Source: a virus | Length of the DNA: 25,432 nucleotides | Reading direction: 5' to 3' (one strand) | Virus record (IMG/VR): IMGVR_UViG_3300005613_000379 | Location: 1 to 25,432 of that record | Shown: one piece after another, positions 7,622-12,039 of the stretch | How positions within the stretch are numbered: the first letter of the stretch is position 1 | Layout of the letters: every line of letters starts with the position of its first letter | The notes under the pieces: generated by a model | Databases searched by the model: none | What the model was told of the DNA's origin: nothing | Seen by the model: the letters and a program-made list of their open reading frames with translations, nothing else | Translations under genes and position numbers: made by a program

Positions 7622-9214
7622 ATGCCTATAGTACTGGATGGCAAAGAAGTTGTTGACCAGATGAACGTTCGTCGTGACGCAAGCGCGTCGGGCGAGGTGT
7701 TGCGCTGGGATCAGATGCTAGACGAAGACGATATGGCGTCTGACTCCGCAACCAAGGTAGCCACTCAGCAGTCCGTTAAGGCATACGTGGACGCACGACA
7801 GTATTACGGCCTCACGTGGGATGAGGACGCGGACAGCTATGCTCGCACGGGGATGTTGGCTGGTATAGCTGCTGGCAGTTCGCCAGGTGATGCCGCGCTG
7901 CCTATTCATGCGAGGATGCGTCGTTGTATTATCAGTGATGCTGGTGAAGTGCAATACTATCTCAACTCGAACGATAGCACCAAGAAGGTAGACGGTAGTG
8001 CAGCGGACTTGACAGGCGCAGACGGCCAGGTCATGGTGGAGATTCCATGCTTTTGGTACAGGTATTCGTACTCTGGCACGACCCACCGTTGGGACATCAG
8101 TGAGTTTCCATTGCCTGGGTTTACTCGCCATCCTGCCTTTGTCAAGAATGGCGCCAATGTGGATGTCCGCTATGTGGGCGCTTACGAAGGCGTGTTATAT
8201 GACACATCTGAAAGCAAGTACGTGAACGGACTATACCTGCCGTCGGATGCCAGCTACAAGATGACGTTCACCAATGTTGATGACAAGATTGAGTCGGATA
8301 CGTTGACACACCCATTCACCAATATTGAGGTGGGCGTGGACAAGATCGTCGTCAGCGGCACGGTGAACAACAACGGTACATACGATGTGGTTACACAAGG
8401 CGATGATTTCATCACAATTGGCGCGGGCGGAACGCTCACGGATGAAGCGAATGTTGCCTGTGTGATTCAGGTGCAACGAGACTGGACAGCGACTACGGGA
8501 GATGTGTTAGGGTCTGTGTCGGGCAAGGCTCCCATGAACTATGGCACGCGGGCCAACTTTCGCGCTGCGGCAGCCACGCGCGGGACAGGCTGGCGACAAC
8601 TTGATTTCTACTTAGTTTCAGCCATTCAATTACTTTATCTGGTAGAGTACGCCGACTTCTACTCCCAGTCCATGATCGGGAGCGGGTTGACGGATTGGAG
8701 TTCAGCCTGGCCTGCGTGGAATAACTCCAATCCAATCGAGACAACGGGGAACAGCAACTCAGACGGTGATGCAACTGCCAATACGAGTGGGGGTGACGGA
8801 GCAACTGGTTCGTACATGTCCTACCGTGGAGTTGAAAACTGGTATGGGCATGTTTGGGCGTGGGTTGACGGGTTCAACATCAACAGCAACGTGCCTTATT
8901 TCAGCAACACTGATACGGATTTTGCTGATGACACGGCGACGAACTACGATGATCCTGGTGTGACGCTGGCAGCTGCCAATGAGTATCAAAACACGCTTGA
9001 GCAGATAGACGAAGGTTTCTTGCCTGCGAGTGTGGGTAGTCCTGGCACTGCGACGACGAAGATTACTGATTATTACTATCAAAGTACCGGTTGGCGGGTC
9101 GCTCTGATGGGCGGGTGTGCGCTTAATGGCGCGTTTGCGGGCGCCTTCTATTGGTATCTGAATGACGCCTCCTCCTATCTGAATCGGCATTTCGGCGGTC
9201 GGGTCTCGTTTTGA
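7622..9214 (+). CDS. DGR-diversified tail/surface protein with C-type-lectin-like C-terminus
   Basis: A 530-aa protein with a strong AGGAGG site. Residues 36-57 (DDMASDSATKVATQQSVKAYV) match a short motif common in phage tail-fibre N-termini, which suggests virion attachment. A beta insert lies at about 215-285. From about residue 320 (RGTGWRQLDFYLVSAIQLLYLVEY) to the end it has the layout of the C-type-lectin fold of DGR targets, related to the formylglycine-generating-enzyme fold. The last 41 residues (490-530) are the variable repeat, which is nearly identical to the template repeat 164 bp downstream. Compared with the template coding, residues 491, 492, 499, 512, 515, 516, 519, 522, 523, 524, 526 and 527 differ through adenine changes. 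These residues probably form the ligand-binding face. A receptor-binding role is inferred from known DGRs. Confidence 0.9.
   Translation: MPIVLDGKEVVDQMNVRRDASASGEVLRWDQMLDEDDMASDSATKVATQQSVKAYVDARQYYGLTWDEDADSYARTGMLAGIAAGSSPGDAALPIHARMRRCIISDAGEVQYYLNSNDSTKKVDGSAADLTGADGQVMVEIPCFWYRYSYSGTTHRWDISEFPLPGFTRHPAFVKNGANVDVRYVGAYEGVLYDTSESKYVNGLYLPSDASYKMTFTNVDDKIESDTLTHPFTNIEVGVDKIVVSGTVNNNGTYDVVTQGDDFITIGAGGTLTDEANVACVIQVQRDWTATTGDVLGSVSGKAPMNYGTRANFRAAAATRGTGWRQLDFYLVSAIQLLYLVEYADFYSQSMIGSGLTDWSSAWPAWNNSNPIETTGNSNSDGDATANTSGGDGATGSYMSYRGVENWYGHVWAWVDGFNINSNVPYFSNTDTDFADDTATNYDDPGVTLAAANEYQNTLEQIDEGFLPASVGSPGTATTKITDYYYQSTGWRVALMGGCALNGAFAGAFYWYLNDASSYLNRHFGGRVSF
9089..9206 (+). repeat. DGR variable repeat (VR)
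   Basis: This 118-bp segment at the 3' end of the target gene aligns without gaps to 9253-9370 (offset 164). There are 14 differences. Thirteen are at positions where the template has A: 9093, 9096, 9117, 9155, 9164, 9167, 9176, 9186, 9188, 9191, 9197, 9201 and 9206. The changes are A to G (8), A to T (4) and A to C (1). One is not at A: template C9287 is T9123 here. The GC-rich 3' end (about 9193-9205) is the likely region for initiation of mutagenic homology; just after it the two copies differ by TCG versus AGC. Confidence 0.95.
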
Positions 9215-9231
9215 TACATTACATAATATCT

Positions 9232-9401
9232 TGGTTTTCCATATAGTACTCAGGTTAGCAGGTCGCTCTGATGGGCGGGTATGCGCCTAATGGCGCGTTT
9301 GCGGGCGCCTTCTATTGGAATCTGAATAACACCTCCTCCAATCTGAATCAGAATATCGGCAGTCAGGTCAGCTTATCTCAATCTGTAGATATGGAAAACC
9401 A
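9232..9401 (+). ncRNA. Putative DGR template RNA core closed by a 13-bp inverted repeat
   Basis: TGGTTTTCCATAT (9232-9244) is perfectly complementary to ATATGGAAAACCA (9389-9401), and the two arms enclose the whole template repeat with short spacers on each side. This would let the template RNA form a closed stem next to the start of the spacer that leads to the reverse transcriptase gene (9371-9485). In the Bordetella phage DGR, the RNA downstream of the template repeat is structured and needed for priming cDNA; an equivalent role here is inference. Confidence 0.55.
9253..9370 (+). repeat. DGR template repeat (TR)
   Basis: The invariant donor copy of the variable repeat, lying in the gap between the target gene and the reverse transcriptase gene. 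It has 25 adenines, many as AAT or AAC codons in the frame of the target gene (NLNNTSSNLNQNIGSQ), the usual design of a template repeat, because AAC/AAT codons give wide amino-acid choice and no stop. Thirteen of the 25 adenines are changed in the variable repeat. In the target frame it carries a TAG stop at 9256-9258, which is TGG in the variable repeat. Confidence 0.95.
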
Positions 9402-9485
9402 TGCCTCTTGGCAAAACACAAAGCAAGGCTCCATAAGTGCCGGTAGGATGGACGCATCTCGAAGGCTCTGGAGCAAAATAAGCAG

Positions 9486-10550
9486 ATGAAAAGATACGGT
9501 TACTTGTATGAAAAGATGTGGGATATGGATAATATCCGAGAGGCTCATCATAACGCACAACGTGGCAAGCGGTATTATCGCGAAGTGCAGATGGTGAACG
9601 CAGACACAGAGAAGTATCTGAGTCAAATCCAAGCTATGCTGCGGGACAAGACATTCCACACCTCAGAGTATGAGGTGTTCACCAAGGCTGACGGTAGTAA
9701 GGAACGAGAGATTTACAAGCTGCCATACTTTCCAGACAGGATTGTGCACCATTGCATCATGCAAATACTTGAGCCTATCTGGATGAAGACGTTTATTACA
9801 GATACCTATTCATCGTTAAAGGGGCGCGGTATCCATAAGGGCGTCCAGCGGATGAAATTGGCATTACAAGACAGGAAAAATACTCAATATTGCTTGAAGT
9901 TTGACATTCGCAAGTTCTATCCGTCAATTGACCATGATGTTCTTAAAGCAATCATCCGTAAGAAGATAAAAGACCCTGGTGTTCTATGGCTGTTGGATGA
10001 AATCATTGATTCAACTGAAAGTGGTGTGCCGATTGGTAACTATCTCAGTCAGTACTTTGGCAATCTATATCTGGCATACTTCGACCATTGGATGAAAGAA
10101 GAAAAGCGTTGTAGGTACTATTTTCGTTATTGCGATGACATGGTTATACTACATAGTGATAAGCAATTTCTACGCCAATTGTTTGAAGATGTGCAGGAAT
10201 ATCTATTTACCAATTTGAACTTGGTGGTCAAATCCAATTATCAAGTATTTCCAGTAGAAAAGCGAGGTATTGACTTTTTGGGTTATAGATTCTTTCACGA
10301 TTACACGCTTTTGCGTAAAAGTATTGCGCAACGCTTCAAAGCTAAGATACTGAAGATTAGGCAAAGTTGGAGAAACATGAGGCCCAGCCAGATTATAAAC
10401 GGCATTATGAGTTATTGGGGCTGGATGAAATATGGGAATTGCTTTAATCTTGCCAAGAGGTACATTGATAAGGAAATTGAGCAGATTGTGGCAGAAACCT
10501 GCGAGGCTAATGGAACGAAAAATCCATTGAGGAGATTAAAATGGCAGTAA
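9486..10550 (+). CDS. DGR reverse transcriptase
   Basis: A 354-aa reverse transcriptase of the group-II-intron/DGR type. Motifs in order: YKLPYFPDRIVHH (77-89), SSLKGRGIHKGVQRM (109-123), LKFDIRKFYPSIDH (137-150, catalytic Asp140), GVPIGNYLSQYFGN (180-193; the GxPxGNxxSQ form is typical of DGR enzymes), YFRYCDDMVIL (212-222, catalytic Asp217 and Asp218), and GIDFLGYRFF (261-270). It lacks maturase and endonuclease domains, as expected for a DGR enzyme. It makes cDNA from the template RNA with errors at adenines, which then replaces the variable repeat. The ATG overlaps the end of a reading frame that runs out of the template repeat. The gene looks more AT-rich than the glycosidase gene downstream. 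Confidence 0.96.
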   Translation: MKRYGYLYEKMWDMDNIREAHHNAQRGKRYYREVQMVNADTEKYLSQIQAMLRDKTFHTSEYEVFTKADGSKEREIYKLPYFPDRIVHHCIMQILEPIWMKTFITDTYSSLKGRGIHKGVQRMKLALQDRKNTQYCLKFDIRKFYPSIDHDVLKAIIRKKIKDPGVLWLLDEIIDSTESGVPIGNYLSQYFGNLYLAYFDHWMKEEKRCRYYFRYCDDMVILHSDKQFLRQLFEDVQEYLFTNLNLVVKSNYQVFPVEKRGIDFLGYRFFHDYTLLRKSIAQRFKAKILKIRQSWRNMRPSQIINGIMSYWGWMKYGNCFNLAKRYIDKEIEQIVAETCEANGTKNPLRRLKWQ

Positions 10551-10942
10551 GCGAAAGCGGTACTTACCCAGAAACGTTCGCCAAATCACGCGGGCGCACG
10601 CTGTTTCGGTGGAATATCCAAGAGGAGCAGGTAACTGACCCTGTGACTGGCGAAGTGACCACCAAGTATGTCTACGATGAAGTAGCAATTGAGGGCAATG
10701 TCACCAAGGCCAAAATCCTGGAGGCCATGCGCCTGGCGGACATCGAAAGTGCAGACTCGGAAGGGAGCGCACTGGCAGAATACGAGGTCGCAAATACCAA
10801 GCTCGCCAAGATAGCCGATTTGACCTATGCGCAGCTGGATTCATACATAGACAAGAATGTGACTGACTTGCCTTCTGCGAAGGTCTTTCTGAAGGACTTG
10901 GCGGCCGTGGTTCTGGCGGTTCTGAAGCGCCTGGGGATCTAA
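10541..10942 (+). CDS. Phage hypothetical protein downstream of the DGR
   Basis: The 133-aa product overlaps the reverse transcriptase gene by 10 bp and has a ribosome site (GAGGAG) inside it. Its N-terminal half is beta-like and acidic (TLFRWNIQEEQVTDPVTGEVTTKYVYDEVAI). The C-terminal half is helical: LAKIADLTYAQLDSYIDKNV, then DLPSAKVFLKDLAAVVLAVL. This helical end is a recurring pattern in small phage proteins coded beside tail-fibre genes. I looked for Avd, the usual DGR partner (a basic four-helix-bundle protein); this is acidic and half beta, so I do not call it Avd. Function is unknown. Confidence 0.7.
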   Translation: MAVSESGTYPETFAKSRGRTLFRWNIQEEQVTDPVTGEVTTKYVYDEVAIEGNVTKAKILEAMRLADIESADSEGSALAEYEVANTKLAKIADLTYAQLDSYIDKNVTDLPSAKVFLKDLAAVVLAVLKRLGI

Positions 10943-12039
10943 TGCGAGGAGTAGCCATCCTTTGCTTGCTCGTCGTCATCACCGCAGGCTATCTGATAGC
11001 GCATACTGACGCGCCAGTTCAGGGCATCGGCGTCGGCTGGGACGAGGGCACGCAGCAGGAGATTGACGCTGTGGCAGAGTGGTACTACAACTGGGGACAC
11101 AACCGCGTCCACGCCGACTACCACCCGATGGTGTGGTGTGGCTTGAGGCAGTCCGTTCTGGACTACGCCGCGGCGCATCCGGGCAAGACGTGGCTGATCT
11201 CAAACGAACCGAATTGTCCGTACCAGTGTGGCAAGTATGTGGAAAGCGCGGCTGAGGCCGGCGCACAGGACAGAGAGACGATTGACAATATCCTGGCCGT
11301 AGACCCATCGGCCATGTTCCTGATGGGCGGCCTGTACTCGTTCGATCCAGACTGGATCAGCTACTCAGAGGACTATTGGCAAGCATTGCGTGGCTGGGAG
11401 ATACCGGAGATCATCGGCTGGCACATCCACATCTACCATGAGTGGAATGCTTGGGGCCCGTATCAGGAGCACCGCGACAGAGTGTACGGCGAGTTTGTGG
11501 ATGGCATCACGGAGTGGCGGCAGCGATGGCCTGACGGTGAGCTGTGGCTGACCGAGTGGGGGCCGCTGGGGTGGTATGCGCTGACGTGGCCTGACAGCAT
11601 CCTGGACTACATGGAGCGGACGATTGACTGGATGGAGAGCAGCGGCAAGGTAGATCGTTACGCCTGGTTCGCGCTAAAGCAGGTGCCCGATTACGCGGAC
11701 TATGCAGCCTACTTGTTCGGTATGGAAGGCAACCTGACGGTGTATGGTCAGCAGTATGCCAGTTACCTGAGCGGCGCACCGCCGACGAGTATGCCAGAGC
11801 CAACGCCAACGAACACGCCACAGCCAACACCGACCAGCACGCCCATGCCTGCGCCAGACTACCCTGATCACGACTTGAACGAGGACTGTGTGGTGGACAT
11901 TCAAGACGTGATGCTGGTAGCGGCTTGCTGGCGAGACTATAGCGGATACTGCATGGCGATGGATCTGAACGGAGACGGGCGGATCAACGTGGTGGACATC
12001 ATGCAGGTGGCGGCGCATTGGGGAGAGGTGTGCGAATGA
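10942..12039 (+). CDS. Secreted glycoside hydrolase (GH128-like) with C-terminal dockerin
   Basis: A 365-aa protein in three parts. Residues 1-20 are a signal peptide or N-terminal membrane anchor. Residues 27-275 look like a TIM-barrel glycosidase of the Glyco_hydro_cc/GH128 type: YYNWGHN (48-54), HPMVWCG (61-67), ISNEPN (86-91, candidate acid/base Glu89), GWHIHIYHEW (159-168), LWLTEWG (201-207, candidate nucleophile Glu205), and YAWFALK (240-246). The known family cleaves beta-1,3-glucans; the substrate here is unproven. A Pro/Thr linker (284-305) leads to a type I dockerin with two Ca2+ loops: D311, N313, D315, D319, D322 and D341, N343, D345, N349, D352. The gene overlaps its upstream neighbour by 1 bp. 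A dockerin in a phage structural region is very unusual. Confidence 0.85.
   Translation: MRGVAILCLLVVITAGYLIAHTDAPVQGIGVGWDEGTQQEIDAVAEWYYNWGHNRVHADYHPMVWCGLRQSVLDYAAAHPGKTWLISNEPNCPYQCGKYVESAAEAGAQDRETIDNILAVDPSAMFLMGGLYSFDPDWISYSEDYWQALRGWEIPEIIGWHIHIYHEWNAWGPYQEHRDRVYGEFVDGITEWRQRWPDGELWLTEWGPLGWYALTWPDSILDYMERTIDWMESSGKVDRYAWFALKQVPDYADYAAYLFGMEGNLTVYGQQYASYLSGAPPTSMPEPTPTNTPQPTPTSTPMPAPDYPDHDLNEDCVVDIQDVMLVAACWRDYSGYCMAMDLNGDGRINVVDIMQVAAHWGEVCE

Follow-up and report, generated by a model that had tools for sequence, protein, structure and literature searches.

How is mutagenic copying in a diversity-generating retroelement (DGR) restricted to exactly one segment? This central question is raised by a stretch of viral DNA of 25,432 nucleotides (the window), in which an inverted repeat encloses the template repeat (TR) of a DGR. 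We propose that the repeat encodes a long-range helix, P1, in the DGR template RNA, which holds the template as a closed loop and may thereby fix both template ends. We put the probability of this reading at about 0.8.

The surrounding element is an ordinary DGR, with a spacer that is an already catalogued RNA (Table 1). Its reverse transcriptase (RT) matches both RVT_1 and phrog_1423, and the relatives found with it by tblastn include published DGR RTs such as those of ANMV-1 and BPP-1-type phages. The mismatches between TR and the variable repeat (VR) are adenine-biased (13 of 14), and the target gene carries VR at its 3′ end, with 9 nt remaining after it. No Avd-like ORF is present in the interval between the target gene and the RT of the window. 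A gene soon after the DGR (10942-12039) encodes a glycosyl hydrolase catalytic core and a type I dockerin domain, which is unusual for a phage.

Table 1. Positions in the window of the DGR components and of the RNA elements discussed in the text.
Feature	Position	Strand	Basis or remark
DGR target gene, phage tail protein family phrog_5302	7622..9214	+	phrog match
Variable repeat (VR), 3′ end of target gene	9087..9205	+	offset 164 to TR
P1 left arm, 5′ side of TR-closing stem	9232..9244	+	exact inverted repeat, predicted fold, covariation
Template repeat (TR), inside P1	9251..9369	+	14 mismatches to VR, 13 at TR adenines
P2 left side, GCTTAT, TR 3′ end (IMH*-like region)	9371..9376	+	group-level covariation
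P1 right arm, 3′ side of TR-closing stem	9389..9401	+	exact inverted repeat, predicted fold, covariation
Rfam RF03020 RT-17 RNA, spacer RNA (Sp), TR to RT	9397..9489	+	covariance model
Hairpin TGCC-TCTT-GGCA, then AAA	9402..9413	+	directly 3′ of P1 right arm
P2 right side, ATAAGC, Sp 3′ end, just ahead of RT start codon	9478..9483	+	group-level covariation
DGR reverse transcriptase	9486..10550	+	RVT_1 and phrog_1423 matches

The left arm, TGGTTTTCCATAT, has its exact reverse complement on the far side of the TR, with a gap of 144 nt, and the perfect 13-bp repeat described in the initial annotation was found at the same positions. That annotation began the feature at 9253, which is roughly the start of the TR; the re-measured limits of the TR are slightly different (Table 1). 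The 13-mer has no other match in the window, even when up to two mismatches are allowed. Both the minimum-energy and the centroid predicted folds contain the stem, whose pairing probabilities range from 0.79 to 1.0. Chance might have placed an AT-rich 13-mer and its complement on either side of the TR, and when the whole window was shuffled by dinucleotides, 10 of 200 shuffles contained at least one perfect 13-bp inverted repeat with a gap of 50-250 nt. Shuffling the TR region alone (9207-9485) gave no such repeat in 3000 trials. By the sequence of the window alone the repeat is mildly unusual and the evidence for P1 modest, and it is therefore the comparative evidence that establishes the helix.

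The right arm directly precedes a tetraloop hairpin that has a counterpart in nearly all relatives, with a stem of 3-5 bp, a loop usually of 4-5 nt and then AAA. The spacer matches the Rfam RT-17 model over its full length (1-95) with a score of 50.4 bits against a gathering threshold of 40.4, and the model also matches three relatives (L003, L010 and L055). Since the hairpin and AAA form the 5′ end of RT-17, RT-17 represents the 3′ portion of the DGR template RNA. The 5′ boundary of the model falls on the final few nucleotides of the P1 right arm, which it treats as unpaired. Both the left arm and the TR are outside the model and the closing stem is therefore absent from it, the helix having been missed because the partner arm lies beyond the TR. 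A literature search for the source paper of RT-17 returned nothing useful. A stem that fixed where the spacer RNA starts, as had been suggested, would fit this anatomy, because the P1 right arm abuts the first RT-17 hairpin.

Related loci were collected by RT searches, which gave 80 IMG/VR loci and 16 genome loci together with phage records, and IMG/VR loci were added by searching with the RTs of BPP-1, BalMu-1 and LBR48. Automatic detection yielded TR/VR pairs for 195 loci, almost all of them strongly adenine-biased. The left arm, lying ahead of the TR, mostly starts GGTT, and the right arm, lying ahead of the first spacer hairpin, mostly ends AACC, while the sequence between these ends varies. 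The left and right arms are, for example, GGTTTTTATATC and GATATAAAAACC in L010, GGTTATCATAA and TTATGATAACC in L009, GGTTTCGGGCGG and CCGTCCGAAACC in L021, and AGGCATTCAGCACTCA and TGAGTGTTGAATGCCT in L090. In L055, of the crAss-like type, they are GGTTGTACACCGG and CCGGTGTAAACC, with one bulged G.

Covariation in related DGRs had been proposed as the way to check the stem, and we examined it in several ways. In an alignment-free swap test, native arm pairing was scored against arms exchanged among loci using a strict helix scorer, the controls being maximized by the same procedure as the native arms. For 57 non-redundant representatives of the window's clade the native score was 26.3 compared with 17.2 when swapped (0 of 20000 permutations), for LBR48-like loci (n = 24) it was 24.3 compared with 18.3 (0 of 20000), and for BalMu-like loci (n = 5) p was 0.016; such permutation p-values overstate independence because the sequences share ancestry, but the effect sizes are nonetheless large. 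Pairs were counted in 37 distinct arm pairs, from which the crAss-like bulged base had been removed beforehand. The cells were 96.6% paired compared with 60.6% in shuffles, although the raw percentage is inflated because the arms were placed by maximal complementarity. Both sides change at 11 of 12 pairs, and there are 160 double-change cells compared with 43.7 in shuffles. The covariation score is 0.965 in register, and falls to 0.149-0.195 when the arms are slid by one to three columns. By parsimony on the RT tree we count about 104 both-sided canonical changes, compared with a mean of about 16.5 (maximum 26) when the right arms are shuffled. A position scan over pairs of segments in the window's clade peaks chiefly at two places, at P1 (z about 8.9) and at a second helix discussed below (6.6). 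RNAduplex on 80-nt flanks and a permissive local aligner were dropped as too noisy, since long weak pairings dominate their output, and the stricter scorer was used instead; early unrestricted scans picked up self-pairing between VR and TR.

On these comparative grounds we regard P1 as a conserved RNA helix with compensatory changes in both arms, and their abundance supports the proposal that a stem holding the template in a loop is a structural element of the template RNA. Pairing that is kept over dozens of relatives while the sequence changes refutes a chance origin, the likelihood of which we regard as negligible. Relatives in which the arms are not complementary would have counted against the stem, and no inspected relative clearly lacks the pairing. 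Three loci (L014, L105 and L107) looked like exceptions when scanned automatically, but their complementary arms lie immediately beyond the segments that the scan covered.

An inverted repeat could also act at the level of DNA, as a cruciform or a protein-binding dyad. Published DGRs have a short hairpin or cruciform just 3′ of VR that aids target recognition (PMC4372165, PMC12875486). This is likewise an inverted repeat near a DGR repeat, and the left arm begins only 26 nt past the VR end in the window, so that a displaced form of the recognition hairpin might be considered. However, that hairpin has a short loop, lies at VR and acts on the DNA target, whereas P1 encloses the TR in a 144-nt loop; the window arms do not form a short-looped hairpin immediately 3′ of VR. 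The P1 arm remains at the TR in loci where VR is 480-1020 nt distant. When the flanks of VR were used as a control, nothing significant was found in the window's clade (clade A, p = 0.09), p was 0.31 and 0.47 in clades C and D, and there was a small, weak effect in the BPP-1 clade (clade B, p = 0.024). The pairing tracks TR and not VR. Among mismatches there are 97 G-U compared with 18 A-C, where the background ratio is 0.61 (p about 3e-8). This excess is strand-specific and points to RNA of the RT-coding strand. Internal loops and bulges in P1 also differ among subclades, and we consider a DNA-level element very improbable.

Perfect inverted repeats are typical of the ends of mobile elements, and the arms might bound a mobile DGR cassette as its terminal repeats, or be sites of recombination. 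Yet they enclose the TR only, including neither the RT nor the target gene, and their sequences vary among relatives with complementarity retained. In no locus did we see the segment bounded by the arms missing, or moved as a unit. We give this explanation almost no weight.

The initial annotation had placed the stem in this DGR lineage. It is present there, but it is not restricted to it, and P1 appears also in LBR48-like, BalMu-like and canonical BPP-1-like DGRs. In the BPP-1 lineage covarying arms flank the TR in BPP-1 itself (L082) and in loci L108-L170. The first scan of this clade, limited to +70 after the TR, gave a weak result (p = 0.035), and the arm emerged on extension to +90. With the right-arm window adjusted in this way, a choice made after looking at the first scan, the native score is 25.0 compared with 19.5 (n = 35, 0 of 20000 permutations). 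Here the 3′ end of avd supplies the left arm, which in BPP-1 is AGGGCAGGCTGG at TR -19 to -8 and lies within coding sequence, while the left arm of the window, like those of other loci lacking an upstream avd, is intergenic. The avd arm would pair with CCGGTTCTGTCCT in Sp, after which comes a TTCG hairpin. In BPP-1 the right arm is situated about 57-70 nt past the TR, and in its lineage about 57-90 nt, compared with about 20 nt in the window type. The single-sequence fold of BPP-1 does not predict the helix (pairing probability about 0.01). The priming adenosine of BPP-1 is Sp A56, and by our count on the sequence this base would immediately precede the right arm of P1. The BPP-1 RT is included in solved structures in the PDB, namely entries 8ub7 to 8ube and a further one with an identical RT sequence.

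The second helix, P2, would be formed between the 3′ end of the TR and the 3′ end of Sp. It covaries in the window's clade and in the LBR48-like clade, comprises only six contiguous pairs in the window, and is weaker than P1. P2 crosses P1, and therefore the two together would form a pseudoknot. We regard it as a candidate priming duplex for cDNA. In crAss-like loci such as L057, L059, L074 and L100, the complementarity between the Sp 3′ end, for example AGCAAAGGC, and the VR 3′ end, GCCTTTGCT, is perfect, while the TR version leaves an A-A mismatch. Given this better fit to VR, the RNA portion of an RNA-cDNA product may help to find VR. Unlike in the window's clade, a P2-like helix at the Sp 3′ end was not detected in BPP-1. 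It is conceivable, though we hold it at somewhat less than even odds, that DGR RNAs share an architecture absent from Rfam, based on a covarying template-closing stem to which window-like lineages add the crossing helix. The result would be a template-enclosing pseudoknot in which the Sp end may be the priming site for cDNA, unlike the internal spacer adenine of BPP-1.

How might P1 act? Sequence just 5′ of the TR would pair with the start of the spacer RNA, leaving the whole template in a loop at the base of a structured RNA that runs from P1 through the tetraloop hairpin into the RT-17 domain. Within the RT-RNA complex both ends of the template would then be fixed. On the 3′ side, P1 could keep the RT-binding spacer domain and the priming region a set distance apart. 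Most probably it would also be a roadblock on the 5′ side that ends cDNA synthesis at the edge of the TR, with the result that the TR alone is copied. According to PMC12875486, the folded Sp of BPP-1 recruits the RT complex, and reverse transcription is terminated by a motif in the avd 3′ end; a role for P1 as an RT stop at the TR 5′ edge would be consistent with this terminator.

Alternatively the stem may be real but serve the stability or processing of the RNA, protecting or releasing the TR-Sp RNA, and have no part in reverse transcription. P1 would delimit a compact TR-Sp domain separable from the flanking mRNA, and the intergenic position of the left arm in loci such as the window would suit such a role. 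The retention of the left arm inside the avd coding region in the BPP-1 lineage argues weakly against a processing signal. We think this explanation unlikely, but with a real share of the probability, and favor the template-closing helix acting in reverse transcription.

There is a parallel in the retrons, where a long a1/a2 inverted repeat joins both ends of the self-primed RT template RNA (msr/msd). Retrons have a different RT family and no mutagenic homing. In the literature that we searched, the closing stem is not described as a general covarying feature of DGRs, but for BPP-1 the pairing may already be shown by Handa and colleagues (Nature 2025, cited in PMC12875486).

A conserved helix closing the template would offer a concrete and testable answer to how copying is confined, at both template ends. 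It would explain why sequence 5′ of the TR is retained even where it is coding, as in avd. P1 should help to delimit complete DGR RNAs for detection, and the RT-17 model could be extended upstream over the TR. In engineered systems it would indicate which flanks to retain when the template is replaced.
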